Positions 5,851 through 47,649 of a stretch of 64,000 nt of DNA are shown one piece after another (position 1 is the stretch's first letter; each line of letters starts with the position of its first letter). The notes below the pieces were generated by a model. That model saw nothing but the letters and a program-made list of their open reading frames with translations. It was not told the origin of the DNA and ran no database searches. The DNA comes from a virus. Position numbers and translations under genes: made by a program. The stretch is from positions 1 through 64,000 of IMG/VR virus record IMGVR_UViG_3300023274_000002; one strand, given 5' to 3'.

Positions 5851-7482
5851 TCACCAGTCCACGGTATCCAGGCTGATGCCGCTCGGCAGGCCGGTAGCGG
5901 CCTCGAACGCGGCGTCGCTGTCGACGCGGTCACGCATCGGGCGGGGCGGCGGCGGCGGCGGGGTCCAGTGGGCGGCCGAGATGCGGGCGGCGTACGCGAG
6001 CGTGTCCACCTGGTCGTCGTTAGCCCACGTCGGGAAGCCCGCGATCTCGTCTTCCCACTCGTCCAGCCATAGCGCGAACTCGGGCCAGAACACCGTGTGC
6101 GCGCGCAGCCGGTTCGCCGCGGGGATGGCCCGGGTCAGCTTGTCCTTGTCCGGCGTGACCATCTGGATCCGGATGCCGGCCTTGGTCGCGTCGCGGATCA
6201 GCGTGGAGCCGATGAATCCCTTCTCCACGTAGACGTCCGGCGCGGCCCACTTGCGGCACATCGGCTGCACCATGTCCCAGTGCGCGCTTTCGCCGACCTT
6301 CTGCCGCTTGCGGTCGAGCAGGACCAGCCGACCGTCCATGGTGATCGCCCACGCGGCGGCCACCGTCCAGTCGGCGGAGCGCTTGGTGCTCTCGGCTAGG
6401 TCCATCGTGATGAACCGCGTCATGTCGCCGAGGAACAGGCGCACGCCGTCGATGCTGATCTGTGCGCCGTGCGTCGGGTCGTGGTGCGAATGGTCCGGAT
6501 CGAGGTACTGCCAGTACCGGAAGTCGGCCCGGGAGAACAGGTTGCCCTCGGCCGCCACCGGCGTCTGCATGTAGATCGAGTTCCAGACGTACAGCGACCG
6601 CTTCGCCTTGAGTCCGAGGAAGTAGCCCGGGGCCCGGCGCTGCACGCTGATCAGCTCGCCCCGCGGGCTGTAGGCCGACGCGCCGTCGCCACCGCGGACC
6701 AGCGGGATCGAGGGGTCGCGGACCGCGGGGATCCGGAGCACCTTCCACTCGCCGGGCTCGCCCTTGAGCAGTTTGCCGGCCAGGTCGTCGGCGTGCCAGC
6801 GGGTCAACATCAGCACGACGCGGGCGCGGCTGGACAACCGGGTCGCCGAGTCGGACTCCCACCAGTCCCACGCCCGCTTGCGGTACGTCGGCGATTCGGC
6901 CTCGGCCCGGCCGTGCAGCGGGTCGTCGATCACGAGCAGATCAACGGGCTCGCCGGTGATGCCCCCCTGCACGCCCACACTCAGCACCCGGCCGCCGGCC
7001 GTGGTCTCGAAGTTGCTCATCGACTTCGAGCCGTACTGGAGCTGGATGCCGAACTCCGGGTGCTGCTCGATCATCCGGTGGATCCACTTCCCCCACCGCT
7101 CGGCCTTCTCCGCCGAGTACGAGACGATGGCGATCCGCAACGTCGGGTCCTGCGCGAGCATCCACAGCGGGAACCAGCACGAGGTGCGGGTGCTCTTGCC
7201 CTCCTGCGGCGGGACGAAAATCATCTGTCGGCCGGTGGCGCCCGGAGCGCTGGCGAGATCCACCAAGGCCTCGTCGATGGCGTCCAGCGCGGGAGTCTGG
7301 CGGGTGCGCGGCTCGTAGGCCTTGGCAAGCGCGCCCGGGGTCGGGTAGCGCTCGCGGAACTCAGACCGACTCAGCGCCGCCGTCTGGACGCGGACCTGCT
7401 TGTACTGCTCCAGCTTGGCTATCAGGGATGCCAGTTCGGCGTCGGAACTCGTCGATAGCATCGCGGAGAAGTCGATCGACAT
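5851..7482 (-). CDS. Terminase large subunit
   Basis: DNA-packaging motor. The 543 residues show an ATPase half with a deviant Walker A (PPQEGKST), Walker B (LLVIDDP), coupling region (VVLMLTRWHADDLAGKLL), and a nuclease half with acidic residues in TMDLAEST, VYVEKGFIGS and QVDTLAYAAR. ATG 7482 has GGAGAGTC upstream and is chosen over further in-frame codons. The gene overlaps the small subunit by about 120 bases, much more than its neighbours, suggesting translational coupling. The stop abuts the convergent gene 5068-5850. Confidence 0.92.
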   Translation of the reverse strand: MSIDFSAMLSTSSDAELASLIAKLEQYKQVRVQTAALSRSEFRERYPTPGALAKAYEPRTRQTPALDAIDEALVDLASAPGATGRQMIFVPPQEGKSTRTSCWFPLWMLAQDPTLRIAIVSYSAEKAERWGKWIHRMIEQHPEFGIQLQYGSKSMSNFETTAGGRVLSVGVQGGITGEPVDLLVIDDPLHGRAEAESPTYRKRAWDWWESDSATRLSSRARVVLMLTRWHADDLAGKLLKGEPGEWKVLRIPAVRDPSIPLVRGGDGASAYSPRGELISVQRRAPGYFLGLKAKRSLYVWNSIYMQTPVAAEGNLFSRADFRYWQYLDPDHSHHDPTHGAQISIDGVRLFLGDMTRFITMDLAESTKRSADWTVAAAWAITMDGRLVLLDRKRQKVGESAHWDMVQPMCRKWAAPDVYVEKGFIGSTLIRDATKAGIRIQMVTPDKDKLTRAIPAANRLRAHTVFWPEFALWLDEWEDEIAGFPTWANDDQVDTLAYAARISAAHWTPPPPPPRPMRDRVDSDAAFEAATGLPSGISLDTVDW

Positions 7483-7840
7483 CCGACTCTCCGATCTCCA
7501 CCTTGACGGGAGCGTTCTCGCCGCGGAGCTCACTGATCTGCCGGATGATCAGACGCGCCTCACGCATCATTTTCTCGTCGCCGTCCATCGCCCGGGGCAT
7601 CGCGGCGGTGAGCAGGGCTTCGAGCCGGTCGAGGCTTTCCTGTACGTAGAGGTCGGTCTCGCGGTAGGCGAGCGTCTGGCGTTCCTTCATCAACGCCTTC
7701 ACCGCGTTGTAGGCGTTCGACCGGTTGGCGTAGCCCGCGCCCTCGGCGACTTCGTCCCAGGTCTTGCCCAGGCGGCGAAGCTTCAGAGCCTCGAGCCGCA
7801 TGCGGTAGCTCTCGGCCTTCTGGTCCGGTCCACCTATCAT
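7361..7840 (-). CDS. Terminase small subunit-like HTH protein
   Basis: 159 residues with an N-terminal helix-turn-helix (LRRLGKTWDEVAEGAGYANRS, residues about 20-40) as expected for DNA recognition by a small terminase, then a long helical stretch with ERQTLAYRETDLYVQESLDRLE. Directly upstream of, and overlapping, the large subunit. ATG 7840 is preferred because GAGAGG lies 8 bases before it. No sequence-level proof of the family beyond the HTH and synteny. Confidence 0.72.
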   Translation of the reverse strand: MIGGPDQKAESYRMRLEALKLRRLGKTWDEVAEGAGYANRSNAYNAVKALMKERQTLAYRETDLYVQESLDRLEALLTAAMPRAMDGDEKMMREARLIIRQISELRGENAPVKVEIGESDVDRLLRDAIDEFRRRTGIPDSQAGAVQAGPRPDGGAESV

Positions 7841-7863
7841 CGGGCACACCTCTCTAGCGCGGA

Positions 7864-7893
7864 ATTCTGGCACACGCTGCGATCATCCGCCAA
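7864..7893 (-). promoter_or_regulatory. Candidate promoter for the terminase/head operon
   Basis: On the minus strand TTGGCG (7888-7893) and CAGAAT (7864-7869) are 18 bases apart, in the 89-base gap upstream of the small terminase, the largest intergenic space between 8.3 kb and the capsid gene. The match is modest and other arrangements are possible. Confidence 0.3.
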
Positions 7894-7929
7894 CAGCCTC
7901 CTGTTCACCGACCGAACCGGAGCGGCAAC

Positions 7930-8139
7930 TCACTCGCTGGAGTCACGCGTGATGTTCGCGCCGAAGATGATCACGAACTCGGCCGCTGCCATCGCCCGAG
8001 CCTCGGCGTCGGTGTAGCCCTGGCTGAGGAAATAGGCGCGCTGACCGGCCAGCCACTCATGGAACGGCTCCACCTGCTCGGTCAGCGACATCAACATGCT
8101 GCGCGTCTGCTGCCGGACGTCGGGCATCTCCGTACTCAT
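7930..8139 (-). CDS. Small hypothetical protein
   Basis: 69 residues, mostly helical, with an EWLAGQRAYFLSQGYTDAEARAMAAAEF core and no known motif beyond this. The ATGA overlap at 8136-8139 fixes the start. Last gene before the terminase unit; a promoter-sized gap of 89 bases follows it. Confidence 0.6.
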   Translation of the reverse strand: MSTEMPDVRQQTRSMLMSLTEQVEPFHEWLAGQRAYFLSQGYTDAEARAMAAAEFVIIFGANITRDSSE

Positions 8140-8333
8140 CCTGCCTCCTGCTCTCGTACCCACTCGGCATGCGCGAGCATGACGGCCTCGACCGGGTAGA
8201 GCGCGGCGCGGCGGCCACGGCGCCCGTACTGCGCCCCGACCGCCGCCACGTTCTTGAGCCGGCGAGCCAGCTCCCTGCGAGGAATGGGCGGCCGCATCGC
8301 CTCGGCCGCCTCGGTGATGGTCAGTCCACGCAT
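8136..8333 (-). CDS. Small HTH-like DNA-binding protein
   Basis: 65 residues reading RGLTITEAAEAM then RRELARRLKNVAAVGAQYGR, a pattern like a winged-helix/excisionase-type reader. ATG 8333 has no clear ribosome site, so the start could be leaderless. It overlaps the next gene as ATGA. Role unknown; a regulator of the adjoining head operon is possible. Confidence 0.5.
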   Translation of the reverse strand: MRGLTITEAAEAMRPPIPRRELARRLKNVAAVGAQYGRRGRRAALYPVEAVMLAHAEWVREQEAG

Positions 8334-8372
8334 GAGGGATGATGAATCGCGTACGAGAAGGGGGGCGGATTC

Positions 8373-8498
8373 GTGGCGTCGTGGTGGGCCAAGCAATGGA
8401 GTGACCAGCACTTTCTCCGCACGCTCCTGATCTCCTTCCTACTCCTTGCGGGATTCGTTGCCGTCGCCGTTCTCGGGATGACGGGCATTCTTCCCTGA
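8373..8498 (+). CDS. Small rightward membrane protein hidden in the leftward cluster
   Basis: 41 residues: a polar, Trp-rich start (MASWWAKQWSDQHFLR) then one hydrophobic segment TLLISFLLLAGFVAVAVLG. GTG 8373 follows an AAGGGGGGCGG ribosome site. It sits in the 105-base gap between two leftward genes and overlaps the 3' end of the next (8439-9065) tail to tail by 60 bases. The sequence looks coding (amphipathic N-terminus plus a clean membrane helix), but there is no homology evidence. Confidence 0.5.
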   Translation: MASWWAKQWSDQHFLRTLLISFLLLAGFVAVAVLGMTGILP

Positions 8499-9065
8499 GG
8501 CCGTCGCAGGGGTAGCCCCCTCACCCAGTTCGCCGATGCCGTGCAGCGCGGTGGTCGCGCCGGACATGCCGTCCGGGCCGAAGCGGGCCTCAACCTCGCC
8601 CACCTCGGCGACGCCGAACCAGGTCCGGCCCCCCTCGACGATCCGGACGGTGACCCGCTCCTGGTTCGGGCCGATCTTGATCCGGCCCTGCGTGGCCTGA
8701 CCCACCAGTCCCTCGACCTCGACCGTCCACGTCCGGCTGACCGTGAAGTGGTGCACGCCGCTGTCGTCCACGCGCCCGGGGTCGATCTTCTCGTTGCAGA
8801 TGCGGCAGTGATAGTCGATCTCGTCGTACCCCTCGCCACCGCAAACGCCACCGCACGTGCCGTCGCAGGGCACGTGACGGGTCACGGTGACCAGCGTCGG
8901 ATAGGTGCCGCCGCGGGCCCACGCGTGGAAGTGGCCGACCGCGTCCACCGTGCTCCACTGCGGATCCGGCTTGGTCGCGTTGTCGGTCTCCACGTCGATC
9001 GACAGCCTGCCCGTTGCCGGCTCACCGTTGTCGACGATGACCTGGACCCCCTCGACCGTGGTCAC
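8439..9065 (-). CDS. Cys-rich hypothetical protein
   Basis: 208 residues. The first 50 form a beta-rich N-terminus; then a metal-binding-looking block CDGTCGGVCGGEG plus HCRICNEKID near residues 83-107, then a beta-rich half (WTVEVEGLVGQATQGRIKIG) and a disordered charged tail. GTG 9065 overlaps the upstream stop as GTGA. Function not recognised; the Cys pairs suggest a zinc site. Confidence 0.6.
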   Translation of the reverse strand: MTTVEGVQVIVDNGEPATGRLSIDVETDNATKPDPQWSTVDAVGHFHAWARGGTYPTLVTVTRHVPCDGTCGGVCGGEGYDEIDYHCRICNEKIDPGRVDDSGVHHFTVSRTWTVEVEGLVGQATQGRIKIGPNQERVTVRIVEGGRTWFGVAEVGEVEARFGPDGMSGATTALHGIGELGEGATPATASGKNARHPENGDGNESRKE

Positions 9066-9295
9066 GGCAGTCTCGCCTCGATCGCGGCGATGCGCTCGGC
9101 GATAGCTTCGAACACCTCGACGCTCATCGTGTCGCTCACGGGCTGACCGAGGATCAGGCACGCCCGGGCCAGCCTCAGCGCCCTGTCGTACTCCATCACC
9201 CCGTTCGTCCGGGTCAGGATCACCGTACCGTTGCCTGCGGGCAGCGACGCCTCGTCCAGGGCCGCACGGACTTCGTCATCTGTTGGTCGCGGCAT
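9062..9295 (-). CDS. Small hypothetical protein
   Basis: 77 residues: MPRPTDDEVRAALDEASL then ILTRTNGVMEYDRALRLARACL, helical, ending in an amphipathic helix (EAIAERIAAIEARLP). No recognised domain. ATG 9295 lies two bases downstream of the previous stop and the 3' end overlaps the next start as GTGA. Confidence 0.62.
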   Translation of the reverse strand: MPRPTDDEVRAALDEASLPAGNGTVILTRTNGVMEYDRALRLARACLILGQPVSDTMSVEVFEAIAERIAAIEARLP

Positions 9296-9297
9296 GA

Positions 9298-9525
9298 TCA
9301 CCCCCACATCGCCCGGAGGGTGGCCACGGCCTTGTCGTAGCCGGCCGGTCGGCGAACGCTGGCGACCTTGACCACCTCCCACATGCCCAGATCCGTATCA
9401 CCGAGGCGGAGCGGGAGGAGCGGTCGCTTTCCGGGGGCGGTGCCCATGTGCTCAGTGAGGAACTGCGCGGCGAAGTCCGGCGGCACCTCTACCTCGATCG
9501 CGGGCACGTCTTTGCTGTTCGCCAT
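9298..9525 (-). CDS. Small hypothetical protein
   Basis: 75 residues, beta-rich middle (KRPLLPLRLGDTDLGMWEVVKVASVRR). ATG 9525 is used because GAGG lies 8 bases before it; GTG 9531, overlapping the upstream stop as GTGA, is an equally formal alternative. No function recognised. Confidence 0.6.
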   Translation of the reverse strand: MANSKDVPAIEVEVPPDFAAQFLTEHMGTAPGKRPLLPLRLGDTDLGMWEVVKVASVRRPAGYDKAVATLRAMWG

Positions 9526-9527
9526 GG

Positions 9528-10853
9528 TCACGACCTCGGGAAGCGGGGGAAAGTGGCCGAGGCGGAACGGTACTGCTCGGCGACCATGACCGCGGCGGCG
9601 TAGTCGTAGGCCTGGCTCCAGCTCGCCGTGTACTCGGGCTTCCACGCGGAACCCGCGGCGGCCACCAGCGTGCGGAAGAGGATCGTCTTGACCGTGGCGT
9701 ACTCCTCCCACGTCGCGCCCTGGACGCTGCCGTCGGGGCGGATGAACGCAGCGTGCGAGCGGCCGAACGCCTTGAGCGCGGTGTCCAGTCGGCCCATCTT
9801 GTCCTCGTCGGCAGGATCGTAGAGCTCCGACAGCGCGATCAGCGCCTTGAGCAACTTGTCCCGCTGACCCCTGATCTTGTCCGCCGTGAGCAGGTCGGAG
9901 GGGAACAGTCCGGCCAGGGCGGGCGCCAGACTCAGCAGCTCGGCGTAGAACGCCTGGACGATCGGGTCACCGGAGTCGCCGACCAGCGCGATCGACGCGC
10001 GCAGGTGGTCGCTGATGCTCGGCATGTAGCCCATCCCCTCGCAGTGCGGGCATGGTTCCCGCTCGACTCGGACCAACGGTGCGGGCACCTTGGCCGCCGC
10101 CATCACCGGCTCGCCGGCCAGGATGTTGCGGCCTGGCTGCGGGCCAGCCAGCACGAATTCCCCGCGCTCGCCGGCAGCGATGTCCCGAAGGGCGCGGCCG
10201 TGATCGTCGGTCAGGCGAGGATAGTCGTCGTCATCGATCGGGATGTCCCCCCGGTGGAATGGGCCGGCCGGGATCGGCGACGGATCGGCGGGGCTGATCG
10301 GCGCGTTCAGCGGGTCGGCGATCAGGCGGGGATCGGTCTGCATGAGGGACTGAAGCCGACGGCTCTCCTCACCCGGCTCGTGGGCGTCGGCGTACCGGTC
10401 CGGTTCGCCGTCGTCCTCGCCGGCCTGCGTCTCCACGGTGACCTTCTCGCCGTCGCGCTGGACGCTGACCACGTCGCTCAGTTCGGTCGCGCCAGGCGGG
10501 TAAGAGCTCTCGGGCACCTCGGGCAGCTTGTCGCCCGGCGTGGCCCATCGCTCGGGGATCTCGCCATGGGCTCGCGAGTCCGCGATCACGCGTTCCGCCG
10601 CAGCCCGGTCGGCGGCCTGCCGGTCGTCCGCGCTCATCACCCAGTTGTCGCCGCCGGCCGGCATGTCATCCGGCCGGCTCGGATTCGGATCGGTCATGGT
10701 CGTCTCCTGCTTTCGTCTCCGGAACATCCTCTGCATCCTGTAGATCAGTTCGAACAGGCCGAACATCACGGCCAGTATCAGAACGAGCATCCCGAGCGCC
10801 CACGGGTTGTCTCGCATCGGATCATTCCACAGGTCGTGCCACCAAGCGCTCAC
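9528..10853 (-). CDS. Membrane-tethered globin-like protein (two possible starts)
   Basis: 441 residues from GTG 10853 (GTGA overlap). Residues about 18-40 form one membrane helix (WALGMLVLILAVMFGLFELI), then a long acidic low-complexity linker, a Cys pair CPHCEGMGY (268-276), and a C-terminal globin-like domain (280-430). Candidate heme-pocket residues match bacterial globins: Tyr303 (FYAELL, B10), Phe317 (LFPSD, CD1), Gln330 (E7), proximal His367 (FGRSHAAF, F8) and Tyr385. An in-frame ATG at 10697 with AGGAG seven bases upstream would give a 389-residue form without the membrane helix. Possible role: oxygen/NO binding or sensing; inference only. Confidence 0.65.
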   Translation of the reverse strand: MSAWWHDLWNDPMRDNPWALGMLVLILAVMFGLFELIYRMQRMFRRRKQETTMTDPNPSRPDDMPAGGDNWVMSADDRQAADRAAAERVIADSRAHGEIPERWATPGDKLPEVPESSYPPGATELSDVVSVQRDGEKVTVETQAGEDDGEPDRYADAHEPGEESRRLQSLMQTDPRLIADPLNAPISPADPSPIPAGPFHRGDIPIDDDDYPRLTDDHGRALRDIAAGERGEFVLAGPQPGRNILAGEPVMAAAKVPAPLVRVEREPCPHCEGMGYMPSISDHLRASIALVGDSGDPIVQAFYAELLSLAPALAGLFPSDLLTADKIRGQRDKLLKALIALSELYDPADEDKMGRLDTALKAFGRSHAAFIRPDGSVQGATWEEYATVKTILFRTLVAAAGSAWKPEYTASWSQAYDYAAAVMVAEQYRSASATFPRFPRS

Positions 10854-11089
10854 CCCTGCGACCTCCCGTGCACGATGAAGCCGGCCACCACTCGGGTCGG
10901 CTCGATCGGCATAGGTAGGTCGTACTCGCGGGCCAGTCGCGCCAGCTCGGTCAGTTCGTCGGCGGCCCGGCGGCGTGCAGCCTCAGCCCGGTGCACTCGA
11001 CGATCAAACTCGCGGTCGCTCATGTTGCGCGCCGGGCGACCGCCCGCCACCCGCACCGCGTTCGCCATCCGGTTCAGGATCTCGTTCAC
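10850..11089 (-). CDS. Small hypothetical protein with LPMP tail motif
   Basis: 79 residues; GTG 11089 (GTGA overlap). Highly charged helix (SDREFDRRVHRAEAARRRA) followed by ELARLAREYDLPMP, a motif also found at the end of the membrane protein 18150-18527, where the encoding DNA is similar too. Function unknown. Confidence 0.6.
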   Translation of the reverse strand: MNEILNRMANAVRVAGGRPARNMSDREFDRRVHRAEAARRRAADELTELARLAREYDLPMPIEPTRVVAGFIVHGRSQG

Positions 11090-11523
11090 GTCGCCCCCAG
11101 TTCCCGGCGCCACTTCTTGCTCCAGCGTGCCGCATGGTAGAGGTCTTGGAACATGGGCGCCTCGTCGGTCTTCGGCGTGCCGTCGGTGCGCCACAGGCGG
11201 TAGGCCGTGGCGTATCGGCCGTTGAGGAAGCCGAGGCCGTAGGACTGCCAGCCGCGGTAGGCCACCGACCGCTCCAGCACGTCGAAGCCGCTCCACACAT
11301 CGCGGGGCAAGGTCCGCAGGATCTCATCGACGACAGCGAACGGGCCGGCCGCCGCGTAGTCCTCGATCGCGTCCAGCAGCACATGCACCCGCCCGTGAGC
11401 GTTCGCGCACATGCCCAGCGTCTGCGCGTCCCCACCGCCGCGCGGGCGCGGCCGGACGTGGTGCTCTTCGATCGGCACCGGCTCGTCGTGCTCGCGGTGC
11501 ACGAGACACTCCCGGCCGAGCAT
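11086..11523 (-). CDS. HNH-like endonuclease
   Basis: 145 residues. The N-terminal part carries an HNH-type metal-finger pattern: CLVHREHD, then EEHHVRPRPRGG, then LGMCANAHGRVHVLL, matching the His-His, Asn and His positions of actinophage HNH proteins. The C-terminal half (GWQSYGLGFLNGRYATAYRLW) is unassigned. ATG 11523 overlaps the previous stop by one base (TGATG). Phage HNH proteins often act near terminase or as DNA-entry nickases; here it lies about 3.6 kb upstream of terminase in the same direction. Confidence 0.65.
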   Translation of the reverse strand: MLGRECLVHREHDEPVPIEEHHVRPRPRGGGDAQTLGMCANAHGRVHVLLDAIEDYAAAGPFAVVDEILRTLPRDVWSGFDVLERSVAYRGWQSYGLGFLNGRYATAYRLWRTDGTPKTDEAPMFQDLYHAARWSKKWRRELGAT

Positions 11524-11645
11524 CACGGCCCGACCAGCGAGATGAGGTAGACGATCAGCATTGCCACGCCGGCCACCATGGCGATCAGGCTGATTCCAGC
11601 GACGCCGAGCAGCAGCGCGATCGCGGTCCGACGAATGATCCACAC
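11523..11645 (-). CDS. Small membrane protein
   Basis: 40 residues starting GTG 11645 with a perfect GGAGG five bases upstream: short basic N-terminus (MWIIRRT) then two closely spaced hydrophobic stretches filling the rest of the protein. The stop overlaps the HNH start as TGATG. Too short for standard gene callers, but the ribosome site and overlap support it. Confidence 0.65.
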   Translation of the reverse strand: MWIIRRTAIALLLGVAGISLIAMVAGVAMLIVYLISLVGP

Positions 11646-11684
11646 GAGCACCTCCCCACCTACGTCGGACGGTACCCGCCGACC

Positions 11685-12041
11685 TCATGTCCGGTGGCGG
11701 CATTCACTCGCTTCGTGGCCCATCGGCCCGCCGCGCAGGTCGCCGCAGTTCGTGCAGTGCGGGTTGCGGCGCCGATCCACCTCGAGCCACGGCGTGACCA
11801 CCTGCCATGCACCATCGACCCAGGCGCGGCAGTGACTCGCGCAGTCGTCGGCCGCCTCCATGGTCGGGTCGCGGTCGCCGCACGCCACCAGCTCGTAGCG
11901 CTCCTCCGACGGGCCCCACGCGATCACCGACCATCCGAGATGCCGGCACTCGGCGTGCGGGCACGGTCCGAGCACCGGGAGCGGTCCGGTGCTCTTGAAC
12001 CACTTCACCTCACCCGGCGCGTCGACGTGCACTTCAGCCAT
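11685..12041 (-). CDS. Cys/His-rich hypothetical protein
   Basis: 118 residues with CPHAECRHLGW near residues 27-37, DDCASHCRAW in the middle and HCTNCGD plus a final CRH; probably zinc-binding. ATG 12041 lies 3 bases after the previous stop. No function recognised. Confidence 0.65.
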   Translation of the reverse strand: MAEVHVDAPGEVKWFKSTGPLPVLGPCPHAECRHLGWSVIAWGPSEERYELVACGDRDPTMEAADDCASHCRAWVDGAWQVVTPWLEVDRRRNPHCTNCGDLRGGPMGHEASECRHRT

Positions 12042-12044
12042 GGA

Positions 12045-12458
12045 TCACTCGTCTCCGCCGCCAGTACCGCGCGACCACTCGGGGTGCGAAGCGAGGAACG
12101 CGATCACGTCCTCGTTGATGCACTCGCCCGTGTCGGCGGCGTAGATGGTGCCGATGTAGCGGACCAGCGACCGCCGTTCATCCGGCTCCGGGTTGGTGTT
12201 CTTCTCGGTGACCACGACGAACGGCCAGCGAATCTTGTGGGCCCGGGCGCGCTCCTCGACCTCGCTCATCGCCAAGTCGAGGAACTTGGCGGACTCGGCG
12301 TATCCGGCCTTGCCACGCTCCGGGGCGAAGCATCCCTTCAGCCTGATCGGCGCCTCGTCCCACGTGCCGCGGCCCAGATCGGAGATGAGCAGGACCGTGT
12401 CCCCGTCGTCGCCGCGCGCCCGCAGCTTGTCAGACCGCCGTGCCCGGTTGTCCCACAT
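12045..12458 (-). CDS. Staphylococcal nuclease-like (SNase/TNase) protein
   Basis: 137 residues matching the SNase fold order: DGDTVLLISDLGRGTW, IRLKGCFAPE, then SLVRYIGTIYAADTGECINEDVI. The Arg and Glu of the R-L-x-G-x-D-x-P-E motif and the later Arg (VRYIGTIY) are kept, but the usual Asp (Ca-binding, Asp40 in the S. aureus enzyme) is Phe in GCFAPE, so activity is uncertain. ATG 12458 has GAGGGGAAA upstream; ATG 12476 is an alternative. It overlaps the next upstream gene by 29 bases. Confidence 0.6.
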   Translation of the reverse strand: MWDNRARRSDKLRARGDDGDTVLLISDLGRGTWDEAPIRLKGCFAPERGKAGYAESAKFLDLAMSEVEERARAHKIRWPFVVVTEKNTNPEPDERRSLVRYIGTIYAADTGECINEDVIAFLASHPEWSRGTGGGDE

Positions 12459-12939
12459 CGGCTTTCCCCTCTGCATCGTCCAGCTCGACGGCATCGCGCA
12501 AGGGCACGCCGGCCTCCCGCTGCTTCTTGGCCACCCCGCCAAGCACCATCAGGGCAAGGTTGACCGCGTCCACCGGCCGCAACTTCTCGGTGTCTTCCAG
12601 GCTGCGCAGCGCGGCGTACGCCTCGGGCATCAGAACCGCTGTCATCTCGATGTTGCCGTTGGGCAGCATCCGGAAGTCGCTCACGGCTGCATTCTTCCTT
12701 CGGCCTGCGGGTTGCAGCATCGCGTGTACGTGGTCGCCGCCGAAAAACGGCGCATGGCCGTTCACGATGCCCTCCCCCGCCAGCCGGTCGAAAAGGTCGG
12801 CCCGGATCACCATCGGCACGCCGCATGCCGTGACCGGCTCGCCGCTGATCAGCGCAATGACCAGTCCGGTCCCGTCACACTCCCATCCCTTGTCCTTGCC
12901 GAACAGAGACGGGAGCCTCGCTCCGCATTCCTGCGTCAC
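12430..12939 (-). CDS. Hypothetical protein
   Basis: 169 residues from GTG 12939 (GTGA overlap). The N-terminal half has scattered Cys and a beta pattern (GTGLVIALISGEPVTACGVPM); the middle has AVSDFRMLPNGNIEMTAVLMP; the C-terminus is helical and charged. No domain recognised. Confidence 0.65.
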   Translation of the reverse strand: MTQECGARLPSLFGKDKGWECDGTGLVIALISGEPVTACGVPMVIRADLFDRLAGEGIVNGHAPFFGGDHVHAMLQPAGRRKNAAVSDFRMLPNGNIEMTAVLMPEAYAALRSLEDTEKLRPVDAVNLALMVLGGVAKKQREAGVPLRDAVELDDAEGKADVGQPGTAV

Positions 12940-13289
12940 GACCGACCCCCGATCGCGCGGCGGCCCTCGATCTCGCCGGCCGGCTCGGTGGCCCAGTCCG
13001 GCCGCGGGGCGTGACGCTCGTTCGCGACCAGCATGCCCTCCATGCTGAAGCGCACGACGGTCAGGCCTAGGGTGCGCACTACTCGGTCCGAGGCGAACAG
13101 GTCAGTCTCGTCGCGCTCCATCTCGACCGTGCCGAACGATCCGGTCATCTGCCAGCTCATGAACTGGTTGGGCGCGAACTCAACCACCACGCCGGCCCGG
13201 CCGCGGAACATGCTGCCGTGCGGCGAGATCGGCTCGGCCGACCACATCCGCTCACTGCCGTAGCCCCACGACATGCGTTCGTTGCTCAC
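12936..13289 (-). CDS. Hypothetical protein
   Basis: 117 residues, GTG 13289 overlapping the upstream stop as GTGA. Aromatic and Met-rich N-terminus (SNERMSWGYGSERMW) and a beta-rich centre. No recognised family. Confidence 0.62.
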   Translation of the reverse strand: MSNERMSWGYGSERMWSAEPISPHGSMFRGRAGVVVEFAPNQFMSWQMTGSFGTVEMERDETDLFASDRVVRTLGLTVVRFSMEGMLVANERHAPRPDWATEPAGEIEGRRAIGGRS

Positions 13290-13513
13290 TGCGTCGTCCC
13301 CTCCTTCGGCACTAGCGTGCCCTCGGCAGGCGGCACGTACTCCAGTTCTTCACGAGCCACGACATGCACGCGCCAGAGTTGGCGCTCACGTGTGTCCACG
13401 GATACCCAGGTGATCGCCTCGGACTCGGAGGCGAACAGTCGCATCAGCGGATCATCAGCCCGCTTGCCCACAATCAGCTCGGCAATCCGCTGGAGGTTCG
13501 GATCCCAGTCCAT
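13286..13513 (-). CDS. Small hypothetical protein
   Basis: 75 residues, ATG 13513 in a TGATG overlap. MDWDPNLQRIAELIVGKR followed by a beta-type stretch EAITWVSVDTRERQLWRVHV. Function unknown. Confidence 0.6.
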   Translation of the reverse strand: MDWDPNLQRIAELIVGKRADDPLMRLFASESEAITWVSVDTRERQLWRVHVVAREELEYVPPAEGTLVPKEGTTQ

Positions 13514-13737
13514 CACGCGCCGTCCCGCTCGGCGATGGCTTGGCGCAGATAGCACGCCAGATCCAGCGCCTCCTCGTACGCATCACGCAGAGCGTCCCGG
13601 CCGTTGTGCGGCTGGAGCGGGGTGCCGTATCGGGCGATGCCGATCTTTTTGCGGACGGCCAGATCGGACATCACCATGTCCTGAACGCTCTGCCGGTCGC
13701 TAGCCACCGGGTCCGGTTGTTCCTCGTCGAGCTTCAC
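13513..13737 (-). CDS. Small MazG-like / nucleotide-pyrophosphatase-like helical protein
   Basis: 74 residues, GTG 13737 (GTGA overlap). The second half RKKIGIARYGTPLQPHNGRD with ALRDAYEEALDLACYLRQA has the acidic helix (EEALD) seen in small all-alpha NTP pyrophosphatase-like phage proteins. The domain is incomplete compared with true MazG, so the activity is uncertain. Confidence 0.55.
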   Translation of the reverse strand: MKLDEEQPDPVASDRQSVQDMVMSDLAVRKKIGIARYGTPLQPHNGRDALRDAYEEALDLACYLRQAIAERDGA

Positions 13738-14117
13738 GCGCCGCCGCCCATCATCGTCTCGATCTCTCGGTTCAGTTGATCCCCGTGCACCCCGGGCATC
13801 CACATTCGCCGCTGGAGCGAGCGCAGCGCACGCCGCTTCGTCCATCCGGTGCCACAGCGTCGGCGGTACTCACCGGCGGGGAACTCCGTCGGCTCGGCGA
13901 GGTAGCCGTTGAAGGTGTTCTTCAGGGCCCGCCAGTCACGATCGCGGACGTGCCGGCCGATCGTCTTCGGGATGTAGCTCAGTGACGTGCGTGCCCGCTT
14001 CAGACGCCACAGGGGCGAGGGTGCGCCGACGGACGCCGGGAACTTCCGCGCGGTCAGGATGTGCCAGGTGTGGATCAACTGCTTGAGCACGCCGACCGGA
14101 TACACGTCCACCGTCAT
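13734..14117 (-). CDS. Hypothetical protein
   Basis: 127 residues, strongly basic, ATG 14117 in an ATGA overlap. Contains KQLIHTWHILTARKFP and RRCGTGWTKRRALRSLQRRMW. It may bind nucleic acid on charge grounds; no family recognised. Confidence 0.6.
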   Translation of the reverse strand: MTVDVYPVGVLKQLIHTWHILTARKFPASVGAPSPLWRLKRARTSLSYIPKTIGRHVRDRDWRALKNTFNGYLAEPTEFPAGEYRRRCGTGWTKRRALRSLQRRMWMPGVHGDQLNREIETMMGGGA

Positions 14118-14743
14118 GCGCCGCCGCCCATCGTCGTGCCGTCTCCGAAGATGAGACGCTCCTCGCCGGTCATGCGGCCCGGTTCCATGCGCGCCCGCGT
14201 GGGATTGCCGTCCGCATCTTTGCAACCGGGGAAGAAGCACCTCACCTCGCCCTTGCGCTTGAGCATACGCAGGCCGTAGGTACCGCAGTAGGGACACGCG
14301 AGCCGCCGGTCGGCGATGCGCGGGAGGTCCACCCACGGCTCGTCCTCGTCGATCGCCGGCACCGACTGCGCGGCCGCAATCCAGCGCTCGAGCTCGCTGG
14401 TCGCCCACCGCAGCGGGGTGTCCGAGACGCTCGGCGCCATGTTGCGCACGATGGCCAGCGCCTCGGCGCCGTAGACGTCCTTGAACAGGGGCAGGTGCAG
14501 CCCGGCCGCCGAGCGCATGCCGCGGGCCAGATTGGCCGCGCCGAAATAGATGTCCCAGTAGGCCGACGCCGCGGCAGGGGCCCACGGCTCGCTCGACTCC
14601 GGCGCGTGCCGGCCGATGGTGCCTGTGTCCGGGCCCGAGTTCTCCGGCTCGGACAGCAGCGGCTCCAGCCGATCGAGCACCGCCTCAGCCTCGCTGATCA
14701 GCTCGTTCAGCCGTTCCATCCGGTCCGTCTCCACGCGCGCCAT
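14114..14743 (-). CDS. Zinc-ribbon hypothetical protein
   Basis: 209 residues. An N-terminal helix (RLNELISEAEAVLDRLEPLL), a central helical domain, and a C-terminal zinc ribbon CPYCGTYGLRMLKRKG ... CFFPGC at about 155-180. ATG 14743 lacks a good ribosome site; ATG 14719 with GGAG upstream is possible. It lies 7 bases after the preceding stop and overlaps the next gene as ATGA. Confidence 0.62.
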   Translation of the reverse strand: MARVETDRMERLNELISEAEAVLDRLEPLLSEPENSGPDTGTIGRHAPESSEPWAPAAASAYWDIYFGAANLARGMRSAAGLHLPLFKDVYGAEALAIVRNMAPSVSDTPLRWATSELERWIAAAQSVPAIDEDEPWVDLPRIADRRLACPYCGTYGLRMLKRKGEVRCFFPGCKDADGNPTRARMEPGRMTGEERLIFGDGTTMGGGA

Positions 14744-14750
14744 GCTCGGA

Positions 14751-14909
14751 TCATGGCACGTCGGGAGGATCAGGGACGATGTCCAGGTGGGGGAAGATCT
14801 CCTTCTCGACCAACTCACCTACGGCTCGCAAGTAGGCGTCACGGCCGCTCGTCTCGTAGGTGTGCATCGTGGCGACGATGTGCAGGAGTCGGTCCCGCAG
14901 TTTGGCCAT
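14751..14909 (-). CDS. Small hypothetical protein, possibly 3' part of a frameshifted gene
   Basis: 52 residues from ATG 14909: MAKLRDRLLHIVATMHTYE then YLRAVGELVEKEIFPHLD. ATG 14909 has no ribosome site. In the same frame, upstream of it, about 24 further coding-looking codons (reading DEATDLEEVHPGTEPP) lack any start codon. Together with the ORF at 14977-15051 in the next frame, this suggests one older gene split by a +1 shift, or a shift used in expression. Confidence 0.5.
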   Translation of the reverse strand: MAKLRDRLLHIVATMHTYETSGRDAYLRAVGELVEKEIFPHLDIVPDPPDVP

Positions 14910-14976
14910 CGAGTACGGCCGATCGACGCGCGGAGGCTCCGTTCCCGGATGAACCTCTTCCAGGTCGGTCGCCTCG

Positions 14977-15051
14977 TCACCCTCGATGCTTCAGCGCCAG
15001 CAGGTGACGCAGGTCTTCGTCGGTCAGCAGGATGATTGCTCGTCTCCTCAT
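14977..15051 (-). CDS. 24-residue ORF, possible 5' part of a frameshifted gene
   Basis: MRRRAIILLTDEDLRHLLAL followed by four residues and TGA. Third codon positions are GC-rich as in real genes here. It ends where the frame of 14751-14909 becomes coding: skipping one base after the AAG codon near 14990 would fuse the two into about 98 residues. It lies just after the terminator at 15069-15106, so a promoter must lie close by. Confidence 0.35.
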   Translation of the reverse strand: MRRRAIILLTDEDLRHLLALKHRG

Positions 15052-28334: not shown

Positions 28335-29465
28335 TCAGCCCTTCAACGGCATGAGCACGTGCCGCCACGACTCGTTGCCAGGCACGGTGACCACGACGCC
28401 GGTGACGACGTCGGTGCGCATCGCGATGTCCACCTCGTCGCCCGGCGCCGAGGCAAGCGCGTCGGCGAAGAACCGCGGGTTGAACGCCAGCGTGACCTCC
28501 GGCCCGGAGTACTGGGCGTCCACCTCCTCGGCCCCATCCTGCTTCAGTGTCTCGGCCTTGGCGTTAATGGTGATCAGATCCTCGGAGAAGGCGATCCGCA
28601 CCGGCCCCTCCTTGTCCCGCACGATCCCCGCGCGCTTGAGTGGTCCGGCCAGGTCACCGACCTTGACGACCACGTGCTCCGGGTGCTGGTGCCGGAAGAA
28701 TCCCCGGACCGCCTCGAGCATCGGGTACGGGTCGGCCACCTGCCGCAGCGTGATCGCCCGCGTCGGCGACGCCAGCGAGATCGAGCCGCCGTCCAGCCCG
28801 ATCTCCACCTCGTCAGGCCCGGTGAACGCCTCGGCCACGTCCACCATCGTCTGCGCCATCACCAGCGCGGTCGCCTCGACGGAGTCGAGGCCGGCGTGGT
28901 CATGATCGAACGGTGCGATGTCCCGCGCAGCACGGAACGAGTTGGTCGCCATCGCGGTCACCTCATTCTCGCCGAACGTGAGGTGCATCAGGTGCAGGGC
29001 AAGCGGCTGCTTCGGGTCCACCGACCGCGCCGCGCCGGCCCGGTGGATCGCCGAGGCGAGCCGGTCGCCAGGTGCCCGGCCGAGGATCGGCAGCTTGTCC
29101 GGCAGCGGCGGGAAGTCGTCCGCGTCAAACGTCGGCAGGGTGTACGTGAACCGGCTTGCGGTCAGGATCATCCCGTCCTTGTCGTCCTGGCGCAGCTCCA
29201 CCGGCTTAGCCGGGAACGTGCCCACGAGCGCGTCCAGCAGCCGGCCGGACACGACGGTCCGGCCGGATCCGTCGCCGTCGACCGGCACGATCGCCCGGGC
29301 GGTCACCGTCTCGTTGTACGCGGTGATGGCCATCGACCCGTCGCCGACGTCGATCAGCAGGCCACCCTGGATCGGGACGGTCGGCTTGGCGTCCAGGAAC
29401 TTGGCCGCCCACTTGACGGCCGCCGCGAATACCTGCGGCTTCGCCGTGATGGTTCCCTCGATCAC
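28335..29465 (-). CDS. dnaN: DNA polymerase III beta subunit (sliding clamp)
   Basis: 376 residues, the normal length for DnaN, covering three clamp domains: GLLIDVGDGSMAITAYNETV early, LTASRFTYTLPTFDADDFP in domain 1, the central VTAMATNSFRAARD, and the C-terminal SWRHVLMPLKG, matching the usual end around the peptide-binding pocket. It would tether a polymerase, likely the host's since no phage polymerase gene is visible. GTG 29465 overlaps as GTGA. Confidence 0.85.
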   Translation of the reverse strand: MIEGTITAKPQVFAAAVKWAAKFLDAKPTVPIQGGLLIDVGDGSMAITAYNETVTARAIVPVDGDGSGRTVVSGRLLDALVGTFPAKPVELRQDDKDGMILTASRFTYTLPTFDADDFPPLPDKLPILGRAPGDRLASAIHRAGAARSVDPKQPLALHLMHLTFGENEVTAMATNSFRAARDIAPFDHDHAGLDSVEATALVMAQTMVDVAEAFTGPDEVEIGLDGGSISLASPTRAITLRQVADPYPMLEAVRGFFRHQHPEHVVVKVGDLAGPLKRAGIVRDKEGPVRIAFSEDLITINAKAETLKQDGAEEVDAQYSGPEVTLAFNPRFFADALASAPGDEVDIAMRTDVVTGVVVTVPGNESWRHVLMPLKG

Positions 29466-40177: not shown

Positions 40178-41257
40178 ATGACCACTGACAATCTCCTGGA
40201 CATCGTGCGCACGGCGCCGCCGTGGGCGACCGGCGCAGCCGCGGGACTGGCCCTGCTGGTACTGATCCTGCTGGCCCGGGCGATCCGCAAGCGCGGCAAG
40301 GGCAAGGCCGCGAAGTGGGCCACCGGCGCGGCCACCGTGCTCGGTATGGCGTGGTCTGCGCAGGGCATGTGGGACACCGCGACGCGCCGCTACGGTCAGC
40401 CCGAACAGGTGGCCGTGGTGCTCTTCGTCGTGTTCGAGGCCTTCCTGGCCGGCCGCATGCTGCGCGCCCACCAGTACCGCGCGGACTTCGCCCGCCGCGG
40501 CCGGTTCGTGCAGGCCGTGTGGATCGGTGCCTGCATCATGGCGCTGGTGGTCGCCCTCGGCGAGGGCTGGCAGCAGGCTCCCGGCCGCCTGGCCATCCCG
40601 CTACTGGTGGCCTATGGCTGGTACACCGACCTGACCGCCGACGACGACCCCGGGCTCAAGCCGAAGACCTCGTGGCGACTGACCCCGCGCCGGATCGGCC
40701 TGGCGATCGGCCTGCTTGAGCCTGGCGAGCGTGACGCGCTGACGATCGACCGCGACCGGCTGCGCGCCAGGATGACCAGACTCGCCTTCCGCATCGAGTT
40801 CGGGGCGGACCCGATCAACGACCTGCTGCACCGGGACGTGCGGCTCGCCAAGCTCAAGACGATCGCTGACGATGCCGACCTGGCCGAGGTCCGCGCCCGA
40901 CTGGCCCGGATGCGGACCGCGCTGATCGGGCCGACGCCGGCCGCGACGACCACGCCCGAGGCGAAGCCGAAGGATCCCGCTCGCCCGGGCCGGCCCACCG
41001 ACGACCGCCTACCGCAGGGTGTGCACAAGCGGCTAGGCCGACTGCTGCGCGGCGCGGAGCTGGAGGCGGACGCGGTCGCTGTCATGACGAAGTCGATCGG
41101 ACCGGACCGCCCTCGCGGGTACTCCTGGGTGGAACTGGCAGGCCTCTACGATCCGGCGCTGCGCCAGCGCAAGGCCGAAGAGTTCGTGGCAGCAGGCCGC
41201 AGGCAGGTTCGCTCCGTACAGATCAACGGCGAGCGCCCGAAAATCACCGTCCCGTAG
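40178..41257 (+). CDS. Multipass membrane protein (plasmid-transfer-like, DUF2637-type resemblance)
   Basis: 359 residues, ATG 40178 with GAGAGGAGCCC upstream. Four or five membrane helices in the first 150 residues (AAAGLALLVLILLARAI, VAVVLFVVFEAFLAG, VWIGACIMALVVALG, LAIPLLVAYGWYT), then a charged cytosolic half ending in a helical domain (RGYSWVELAGLYDPALRQRK). Membrane proteins of this layout accompany TraB/FtsK genes on Streptomyces conjugative plasmids, and such a translocase gene lies 4 kb downstream. The family call is a resemblance, not a proof. Confidence 0.5.
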   Translation: MTTDNLLDIVRTAPPWATGAAAGLALLVLILLARAIRKRGKGKAAKWATGAATVLGMAWSAQGMWDTATRRYGQPEQVAVVLFVVFEAFLAGRMLRAHQYRADFARRGRFVQAVWIGACIMALVVALGEGWQQAPGRLAIPLLVAYGWYTDLTADDDPGLKPKTSWRLTPRRIGLAIGLLEPGERDALTIDRDRLRARMTRLAFRIEFGADPINDLLHRDVRLAKLKTIADDADLAEVRARLARMRTALIGPTPAATTTPEAKPKDPARPGRPTDDRLPQGVHKRLGRLLRGAELEADAVAVMTKSIGPDRPRGYSWVELAGLYDPALRQRKAEEFVAAGRRQVRSVQINGERPKITVP

Positions 41258-45185: not shown

Positions 45186-45407
45186 ATGGATGACGGCGAG
45201 AGTGTGGGCGGTGACCACCTGATGACCACGGCCGAGGTGGCTCGGAGGTTCCGAGTGGACCCGACCACGGTGAACCGGTGGGCCAAGGCCGGCCGGCTCG
45301 CCGGCATCCAGGTCTTCCCCGGCGCGCACCGGCGCTTCCGGGAATCCGAGATCCGTGCACTCCTGGAGGGGGGCGACGATGGCAACGACGACCAGGGTTC
45401 GCGGTAG
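45186..45407 (+). CDS. MerR/BldC-like HTH regulator
   Basis: 73 residues, ATG 45186 (GGAGG eight bases upstream; ATG 45171 is an alternative). LMTTAEVARRFRVDPTTVNR, WAKAGRLAGIQVFPGAHRRF, RESEIRALLEG is a complete winged helix of the BldC/excisionase type. Directly upstream of, and overlapping, the TraB-like gene; the palindrome at 45128-45144 is a candidate operator. Could regulate the transfer-like operon. Confidence 0.78.
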   Translation: MDDGESVGGDHLMTTAEVARRFRVDPTTVNRWAKAGRLAGIQVFPGAHRRFRESEIRALLEGGDDGNDDQGSR

Positions 45408-47649
45408 TTCGGCCGCGGCAGAGCGCGAGCACCACCGGACCAATCTGTGGGCGCAGCTCGCCCGCTTCGTCGGCCTGTTCCTCTCGCCCGCCCTCGGCCT
45501 GCTCGTCGCCTGGCTGCTGCACATCTGGGTGATGGGCGTCAGCCTGCACTGGGGACCGATCGACGTCGAGCGCCGGACGCCGGCCGCCGCGCCGTTCGTC
45601 GCCGTCGCGATCGTGACCGCGGCGACCATCGGTCTGTCCGTGCTGGGCTGGCACATGGTCGAGCACCGTAAGCCGGTCCTGCGGTACGCGCTCGCCGGCT
45701 CGATCGCCACCGTCGGCGTGCTGTTCGCCGTCAACCTCGGCGCCGGTCCGACCTACTGGTGGGGCCCGCTGTTCATCGTCGGCTCGTGGGCGGTCGCCGT
45801 CGTGTGGGCGATCAACCGGCTCGACGTAGCCCGCAACGACAAGGGCGGCGACGAGAACCGGGAGGACGGCTTCCTGGAGCGTCACGGCCTGAAGGGCTGG
45901 CGCGCCCGCGAGGTGAGGCACGTCGCCGACGCCAAGGGCCGCCCGGTGGCCACCGAGATCGAGTTCGAGCACGCCGAAGGCGATACGGTCGATCAGCTCC
46001 AGGACGCGGTGCCCGCGTTCGAGTCGGCGACCGGCAGTCCCACCGGCATGTCGGACGCCACCGGCGACGACCGCGCGGACCGCTCGCGTCTGCGCGTCAT
46101 GCACGTCGACCCGCTCAAGGAGTCGCCGGAGCTTCCGCCGTTGTCCTGCCCGGGCGGCTCGATCGCCGAGGCGCTGATGATCGGTATGTACAAGACCGGG
46201 GATCCGGTCAGGCTCAACATCGCCGGTGGCCCGGGATTCACGCCTACCTCGATCCTGTGGATGGGCATGACCCGCTCGGGCAAGACGTCCACCGAGAACG
46301 AAGCCATCACCGAGATGGAGTCCCGCCGTGACGTGGTGCTTCTCTACCTGAACCGCGCCAAGGGCATGCAGGACATCCGCACCGTGATCCCCGGCATCGA
46401 GGCCGCCGTGATCGCCGACGAGGCGGACGAGGGTGGCCTCTATCGGGAAGCGATGGTCCAGCTCAAGAAGATCTTCGGTTACCGCCAGCGCCAGCTCGCC
46501 CTGTTCGCCGTCGATGCCTGGACGCCGGAGTGCTACAGCTCGCCGCCGTGGCGCACCGACGAGAACGGCCGGCGTGTGCAGATGGAGCCGATGCCGTTCC
46601 TGTTCGTCCACTTCGGCGAGGCCGACGACATCCTGCGGGAGGATCGGCGCGGCGAGTCCGTCTACCTCGCCAGCAAGGGCCTGTCGCTCGGCGTGGCCAC
46701 CTCGTGGTCGCTCCAGCGCGCCGACCACACGATGATGCCGACCGGCCTGCGCTACAACATCGGCGCCCGGCTGTGCTTCGGGATCGGCGACAGCGAGTCG
46801 GCCGAGTTCGCCCTGACCGACGACGTGATCAAGGCGGGCGCCCACCCGGAGTACTGGCGCGCGTTCAAGCCCGGCTATTTCTATTTCATCGGCCCGAATG
46901 TCGACCCTACCCTCTTCCCCGTTTTCGCCCGCTCCTACGGCCGCACCGACGACGGCGGTTCGGTGAGCGCGGAATTGCTGCGCCGCAATATGACGTGGGG
47001 TCCGAGAATGGCGAAACTGGACGCCGGCTCGGTGGCCTCCACCGACGGTTGGTGGGAGAAGACGGTGGCCGAGACGGACGCGCTCCGGGCGCGGCTGCTG
47101 ACTGGCGCCGCACCGCAAGTTGCTCCGCAAACCCGTCCCGCAACTCCGCAGACCGAGGAGGAGCAGGATGCGCAAACCGACCGCGAGACCCGAGAGGAGA
47201 CGGACAAGGAGATGCGCGAAACCACGCAGGTCGAGGGGGTGGAGCTGTACCCGGACGTCGAGGGGGGTGGCGCGACACCCGAGCACGCAAAGAAGGTCTT
47301 CCCGCCCCTGCCCGCAAACGAGGAACTGACGTGGGAGTCGGAGAAGCCGGCCCCGCGGGACCGCAATGCCGCAGTCGAGGCGCTCCGGCGCGCGCTGCTC
47401 GAGCTGTCCCAGGACGCGACTCTGCGGGATCCGTCTGACCCGACCGGGCGGACCGTGATCCTCAAGCCGGGGATGGTGCACGACCGGTACCCGTTCCGGT
47501 CGCGGCCCTGGTTCACCGAGGCCCTGATCGACATGGCCACGGGCAAGCTCGACGCCGGCAACGGGCTGGTGCTGACGGCCATCACGGAGCCCGGTTTCGA
47601 GCCTGGTTCGTACCGGCTCCAAATCGTTCCCGATGGGCACATTCGGTGA
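45379..47649 (+). CDS. FtsK/TraB-like DNA translocase
   Basis: 756 residues, ATG 45379 with GGAGGGGGGCGACG. Two to four N-terminal membrane helices (FVGLFLSPALGLLVAWLLHI, VAVAIVTAATIGLSVLGWHM, ALAGSIATVGVLFAV), then the translocase core: P-loop LWMGMTRSGKTSTENEAI near residue 295, Walker B region PMPFLFVHFGEADDIL, and ATSWSLQRADHTMMPTGLR typical of FtsK. The C-terminal 100 residues may be a DNA-binding domain. TraB-type translocases of actinomycete plasmids pump double-stranded DNA between hyphae and bind repeats downstream of their own gene, which occur here (47647-47788). Confidence 0.82.
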   Translation: MATTTRVRGSSAAAEREHHRTNLWAQLARFVGLFLSPALGLLVAWLLHIWVMGVSLHWGPIDVERRTPAAAPFVAVAIVTAATIGLSVLGWHMVEHRKPVLRYALAGSIATVGVLFAVNLGAGPTYWWGPLFIVGSWAVAVVWAINRLDVARNDKGGDENREDGFLERHGLKGWRAREVRHVADAKGRPVATEIEFEHAEGDTVDQLQDAVPAFESATGSPTGMSDATGDDRADRSRLRVMHVDPLKESPELPPLSCPGGSIAEALMIGMYKTGDPVRLNIAGGPGFTPTSILWMGMTRSGKTSTENEAITEMESRRDVVLLYLNRAKGMQDIRTVIPGIEAAVIADEADEGGLYREAMVQLKKIFGYRQRQLALFAVDAWTPECYSSPPWRTDENGRRVQMEPMPFLFVHFGEADDILREDRRGESVYLASKGLSLGVATSWSLQRADHTMMPTGLRYNIGARLCFGIGDSESAEFALTDDVIKAGAHPEYWRAFKPGYFYFIGPNVDPTLFPVFARSYGRTDDGGSVSAELLRRNMTWGPRMAKLDAGSVASTDGWWEKTVAETDALRARLLTGAAPQVAPQTRPATPQTEEEQDAQTDRETREETDKEMRETTQVEGVELYPDVEGGGATPEHAKKVFPPLPANEELTWESEKPAPRDRNAAVEALRRALLELSQDATLRDPSDPTGRTVILKPGMVHDRYPFRSRPWFTEALIDMATGKLDAGNGLVLTAITEPGFEPGSYRLQIVPDGHIR

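Follow-up and report, generated by a model that had tools for sequence, protein, structure and literature searches.

The chimeric globins described so far fall into two classes, both with an N-terminal globin: the flavohaemoglobins, in which a reductase follows at the C-terminus, and the globin-coupled sensors, whose C-terminus varies (PMC1457004). Vitreoscilla haemoglobin (VHb) shows that a reductase-less bacterial globin can work near the membrane with terminal oxidases (PMC8306070). Single-domain oxy-globins catalyse nitric oxide (NO) dioxygenation in vitro, for which they require an electron donor, and membrane association may aid their reduction (PMC3820574). NO is also a signal in Streptomyces, and Streptomyces coelicolor, which cycles nitrogen between NO and nitrate, clears the NO it makes by means of its own flavohaemoglobin (PMC10552308). 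Phages carry genes of heme and bilin metabolism (PMC11480375), and a search of open-access full text (PMC; subscription papers lay outside its scope) found no phage globin.

In this study, we analysed a stretch of 64,000 nucleotides (the window) from a 70,632-base IMG/VR virus record (IMGVR_UViG_3300023274_000002), for which an earlier note had proposed a phage-encoded globin-like domain on a membrane anchor, with NO detoxification, oxygen sensing or altered host respiration as conceivable roles. The gene lies on the minus strand, which the note had not given, and the large terminase subunit, portal and head maturation protease are encoded nearby (Table 1). The position of one small downstream gene before terL suggests that it encodes the small terminase subunit. 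A search of 7000-15000 revealed no sigma-70-like promoter, and the globin gene overlaps the upstream ORF, so it is probably read together with the packaging genes, late in infection.

Table 1. Features of the globin gene and its neighbours in the window.
Feature	Position	Strand	Basis or remark
Whole globin gene, 441 aa	9528..10853	-	ORF from GTG at 10853 to stop at 9528; start overlaps the stop (10850) of the preceding ORF; homologues in nine further IMG/VR contigs
Membrane helix, residues 19-39	10737..10799	-	hydropathy; in 6/10 homologues
RRRK after the helix	10710..10721	-	sequence; topology predicted from it
Acidic linker of variable length, residues 52-262	10068..10700	-	
CxxCxGxG motif, residues 268-275	10029..10052	-	invariant in 10/10
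Globin domain, residues 280-430	9564..10016	-	Pfam, AlphaFold2 model, PDB fold match
Tyr303, B10	9945..9947	-	alignment
Phe317, CD1	9903..9905	-	alignment
Gln330, E7	9864..9866	-	alignment
Leu334, E11	9852..9854	-	alignment
His367, F8, proximal heme ligand by alignment	9753..9755	-	
Tyr385, G5-type tyrosine	9699..9701	-	alignment
C-terminal tail PRFPR	9534..9548	-	PRxxR invariant in eight aligned homologues
HNH-like gene	11086..11502	-	assigned by eye, without Pfam match; upstream neighbour in 9/10 contigs
Small-terminase candidate (terS), downstream neighbour	7361..7873	-	PHROG label 'RNase E'; sits before terL
Terminase large subunit (terL)	5851..7482	-	

The protein matched one Pfam family only, Globin (PF00042), over residues 301-423, with an E-value of 5.1e-5 and a score of 24.2 bits, above the cut-off of 22. 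Its homologues L001 and L002 likewise exceeded this cut-off (25.4 and 23.6 bits), and seven of eight aligned phage members matched Globin at E <= 0.01. A profile of eight members matched PDB entry 3wfw (1.4e-7) and the flavohaemoglobins 3ozu/1cqx (5.7e-7), and tblastn against a Micromonospora flavohaemoglobin gave 5e-10. The NCBIfam family NF009805 (NO-inducible flavohaemoprotein) scored 25 of 432 bits, far below its cut-off, and its match was confined to the globin part, which is what a missing reductase would lead one to expect.

Tyr B10, Phe CD1, Gln E7, Leu E11, His F8 and the G5 tyrosine are invariant in all ten phage globins, although identity among the homologues is as low as 39%, and they occupy the same invariant columns in a 21-sequence alignment including cellular globins. 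The alignment of the phage globins has 153 ungapped columns, of which 29 do not vary, and the hypergeometric probability that all six pocket positions fall among these 29 is 3e-5 when the kinship of the sequences is ignored. At the helix-H column that holds the glutamate of the classical Hmp/VHb proximal His-Tyr-Glu triad, the window protein has Gln427, with Glu426 adjacent, while His367 and Tyr385 are kept; related actinobacterial flavohaemoglobins are likewise without the triad glutamate. Comparison of close homologues gave a dN/dS of about 0.3 for the globin domain, which indicates purifying selection between them.

The AlphaFold2 model of residues 263-441, built with 20 homologues, reached a pLDDT of 85.9 and a pTM of 0.80. 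It has helices at 18-47, 69-82, 88-104, 120-141 and 144-171 (model numbering), in which the A, B, E, F, G and H helices of the globin fold were recognised. The best PDB match in VIA-align was Hell's Gate globin I (Z 17.8; 130 residues superposed at an rmsd of 1.8 A). Flavohaemoglobins, thermoglobin, neuroglobin and VHb ranked next. Helical proteins give inflated Z values, yet the best 50 VIA-align matches were all globins and Foldseek agreed. A full-length model from three sequences (pLDDT 43) was left out of the fold comparison. Sequence and model both indicate that the C-terminal domain is a 3-over-3 globin, which presumably binds heme. The globin domain of the earlier note was thus borne out by Pfam, profile and fold: a profile search against globin families placed PF00042 above its cut-off, and the five residues that had been named (Tyr B10, Phe CD1, Gln E7, His F8 and the later Tyr) are all present and invariant in 10/10. 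The note had also named a structural model without a heme pocket as grounds for refutation; this check, run in part, did not refute it, as the model, which comprises the protein chain only, has the full globin fold.

Outside the globin domain, mean hydropathy peaks at 2.57 around residues 19-39, and the positive-inside rule, applied to the RRRK that follows, predicts a cytoplasmic globin at the inner membrane face. Six of the ten phages have the helix (the window phage, L001, L002, L064, L065 and L105) and four lack it (L062, L066, L067 and L106); in L062, the flanking WWNDPM and MFRRRQKQET directly adjoin each other. The proposed membrane anchor therefore holds for the window phage but not as a constant feature. 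Sequence comparison indicates that the anchor is optional, the constant parts being the globin and the cysteine motif, and that the family can do without acting at the membrane, as four homologues have no helix. Linker residues 162-262 are conserved in the three closest phages only, and the whole protein has 69 acidic against 46 basic residues.

The DnaJ-like cysteine motif reported earlier was found as a single copy, CPHCEGMG (268-275), just before helix A; it is the one CxxCxGxG motif of the protein and holds its only two cysteines. In DnaJ, two such motifs form one zinc site, and our guess, with one motif per chain, is that a zinc site is shared in a dimer. In addition, AGGAG followed by ATG occurs directly after the membrane helix (window 10680-10725, minus strand), also in most homologues; internal initiation there could possibly give a second, soluble form, or the letters may just reflect Lys-Gln-Glu codons.

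Direct scans of IMG/VR yielded two homologues, L001 with 60% and L002 with 55% identity in the best segment. A terminase-based scan yielded five further related phages with a globin domain upstream of the terminase (L062 and L064-L067), and L105 and L106 came from a scan in which eight phage globins served as queries, which makes ten with the window phage. Nine of the ten contigs have a common order of HNH-like gene, globin, small genes, terS candidate and terL; L106 carries tail-type phage genes, but shares no other gene in the compared stretch. The contig with the next closest terminase (L068) ends before the locus and was left out of the count. The globin is present in every clade contig with a readable locus, unlike the sporadic occurrence typical of a moron or auxiliary metabolic gene; by these comparisons, it is a regular gene of the phage clade and not a stray one. 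Contamination by host genes was ruled out by the occurrence of the same gene in the same phage synteny in nine contigs.

Neither the phage globin nor three bacterial flavohaemoglobin-type globin probes matched any PHROG, and Foldseek against BFVD gave no viral match at E<=1e-3. One divergent query found no counterpart in INPHARED, where the matches over the globin at E<=10 were unrelated phage proteins and the record 'Acinetobacter phage MD-2021a' (L008; CAKLQH020000003.1, 240 kb). The latter was rejected as a phage globin; the part of it that was read encodes ribosomal and housekeeping proteins, and the record seems to be a bacterial chromosome misnamed as phage. With the whole protein as query, no match was obtained in bacterial genome contigs, and an alignment-based scan found cellular flavohaemoglobins and single-domain globins only.

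In the tree, the phage globins form one clade (100/100) on a long stem, which groups with actinobacterial flavohaemoglobins (94/92; the sister group is left vague by the tree) and away from the Acidithiobacillus/Methylacidiphilum single-domain globins and classical Hmp. The simplest reading of these sequences would be that the globin was acquired once, from an actinobacterial flavohaemoglobin whose reductase was not taken along. The GC content (0.66-0.70), a terminase and portal nearest to those of Arthrobacter and Microbacterium phages (35-39%), and a TraB-like gene related to plasmid genes of Streptomyces, Nonomuraea and Amycolatopsis together point to a putative actinomycete host; a terminase search of 396 actinobacterial genomes gave partial matches only and no host.

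The TraB-like gene (window 45379-47649, plus strand; L108-L114) encodes a DNA translocase of the Streptomyces conjugative-plasmid type. It matched NCBIfam plasmid_TraB with E 1.7e-73, yet with 248 bits against a cut-off of 800, and resembles an FtsK-type translocase. It was present in five of the five clade genomes searched, 26-31% identical to plasmid TraB, and absent from INPHARED phages at 1e-5. Since six near-full-length clade genomes also gave no match to a tyrosine or large serine integrase, the clade may consist of phage-plasmids that spread also by conjugation-like DNA transfer. In one record (L064/L112/L113; IMGVR_UViG_3300046715_000149), the gene is split across both contig ends, which suggests a circular or circularly permuted genome. 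Near TraB, 40178-41257 (plus strand) encodes a protein for which membrane helices are predicted and whose C-terminal half has many charged residues; it matched nothing in Pfam or NCBIfam. Elsewhere in the window, 28335-29465 (minus strand) encodes a homologue of the DNA polymerase III beta sliding clamp and lies close to recombination genes of the ERF and YqaJ types.

The phage globin probably acts on NO or O2 during infection of the cell. Given the chemistry of single-domain globins, VHb and the Streptomyces NO cycle, NO removal is our first choice, with oxygen support and gas or redox sensing as its rivals. As a tentative best explanation, to which we give somewhat less than an even chance, the protein would be a reductase-less globin that binds heme and O2, sits in this phage at the inner membrane face and removes NO late in infection. 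First, a phage ancestor would have taken the globin from an actinobacterial flavohaemoglobin and left the reductase part behind. Second, the N-terminal helix would tether the globin of the window phage to the inner face of the host membrane, where the lone CxxCxGxG half-site may let two copies share one zinc ion. Third, the globin would be made late, together with the packaging genes, and would bind O2 in its Tyr B10/Gln E7 pocket; NO would most likely be converted to nitrate, and the globin re-reduced by host, perhaps membrane, reductases. With NO removed, the terminal oxidases would be unblocked and the energy supply would last until lysis. In favour of this explanation are the globin domain seen by profile, sequence and fold, the invariant pocket, the purifying selection, the constant locus beside the terminase genes in nine contigs, the single clade on the actinobacterial flavohaemoglobin side of the tree, and six near-full-length clade genomes in which PF00175, the NAD-binding reductase domain, had no match. 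Against it stand the lack of a phage-encoded electron donor, the replacement of the triad glutamate at the aligned column (Gln427), and the absence of a recognised NO-related partner gene among the genes examined; the four homologues without the helix count against NO removal at the membrane.

NO-related globin genes were also seen in other records. The sole such match in an Hmp scan of IMG/VR was a complete nsrR-hmp pair at L012 7498-9206 (IMGVR_UViG_2843642491_000001), between RdgC/recombination genes and an integrase, which is a candidate prophage-carried NO-detoxification cassette. This pair on one prophage-like contig, and the use of a single INPHARED query, mean that other phage globin types may exist. 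A NOS-FHb pair lies on a plasmid of the actinomycete Micromonospora zamorensis (L005 227-2649), where the gene for the nearest cellular flavohaemoglobin of the plasmid search overlaps a gene for a nitric oxide synthase oxygenase at the latter's end.

Alternatively, the protein could act like VHb as an oxygen helper, storing O2 or delivering it to terminal oxidases at the membrane, so that more ATP is available for phage production when O2 is short. The single globin domain, Tyr B10 with Gln E7, the membrane helix in 6/10 and the fold match to VHb (Z 15.7) agree with this, as does the finding of VHb near the membrane, where it binds cytochrome bo subunit I (PMC8306070). We nevertheless hold this role to be doubtful, as four homologues have no membrane helix and the domain is related to flavohaemoglobins of the NO-dioxygenase type. 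Moreover, pockets with Tyr B10 and Gln E7 often bind O2 tightly, which disfavours delivery.

The invariance of CxxCxGxG beside helix A, a tail conserved beyond the fold, the constant position among packaging genes and the six genomes without a reductase for turnover would also suit a gas or redox sensor, in which a change at the heme or the CxxC alters partner binding through the PRxxR tail or the linker and so times packaging or lysis. However, nothing in the protein was recognised as an output domain of the known sensor classes, and the globin of globin-coupled sensors is N-terminal (PMC1457004), whereas that of the phage is C-terminal; we therefore think this unlikely. A broader and speculative proposal, which we do not expect to hold, is that a family of heme globins belongs permanently to the packaging operon of the phage clade and ties the late phase of infection to the infected cell's NO, O2 or redox state by means of a possible zinc-shared dimer and the optional anchor.

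The position in nine contigs, with the HNH-like gene on one side and terS/terL on the other, and the conserved tail might also be explained by a packaging or assembly scaffold built on the globin fold, its heme structural or lost; this appears quite improbable, because B10, E7 and F8 are invariant while most of the domain varies, and a heme-free scaffold would not need them. Even smaller is the chance of a peroxidase-like enzyme against peroxide stress: the proximal His-Tyr pair is present and VHb has reported peroxidase activity (PMC8306070), but the glutamate that completes the Hmp/VHb proximal triad is Gln at the aligned column. A chance match, for which the modest Pfam score of the single sequence and nothing else speaks, has next to no probability and was ruled out by the agreement of profile, fold, tree and pocket conservation.

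The presence of an intact-pocket globin in every readable clade member would imply that the handling of NO, O2 or redox state matters to these infections. Furthermore, NO signalling in Streptomyces together with a phage globin makes it testable whether phages face NO or poor oxygen in the infected cell.

Compared with known globins, the phage domain is closest to the actinobacterial flavohaemoglobins (Hmp/FHb; e.g., WP_328384182 of the Micromonospora zamorensis plasmid), its tree neighbours, with whose globins it shares about 33-36% identity, the same pocket residues and a QRDKLLKAL stretch at the start of helix E. The Tyr B10 and Gln E7 distal pocket of Hmp occurs in 10/10. In flavohaemoglobins, however, the globin is N-terminal and followed by an FAD/NAD reductase, whereas here it is C-terminal and the protein ends 11 residues past it, which leaves no C-terminal FAD/NAD(P) reductase domain; the phage protein adds CxxCxGxG, the linker, the optional membrane helix and longer CD and FG loops.

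Like single-domain bacterial globins of the VHb/Hell's Gate type, it has no fused reductase or output domain, with an N-terminal extension of about 280 residues. Among these, Hell's Gate globin I of Methylacidiphilum infernorum (3s1i) is the best fold match and HGbRL (3wfw) the best profile match; both are cellular and about 26% identical, and the results used here describe no membrane helix or Cys motif for them. VHb (1vhb) is also single-domain, has Tyr B10 and Gln E7 and acts near the membrane (PMC8306070), but it is soluble, has no anchor, keeps the triad glutamate and is about 19% identical to the phage globin. The DnaJ cysteine-rich zinc domain has four CxxCxGxG motifs, whereas the phage protein has one per chain and no Pfam DnaJ match. 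Globin-coupled sensors likewise hold a globin within a longer chain, but the globin is N-terminal with a C-terminal output domain (PMC1457004), whereas that of the phage is C-terminal with no recognised output domain. Sequence and model accordingly place the protein in the globin superfamily as neither a flavohaemoglobin nor a globin-coupled sensor. What appears new, by the searches made, is the phage setting and a C-terminal globin behind a lone CxxCxGxG motif and an optional helix, an arrangement unlike both described chimeric classes.
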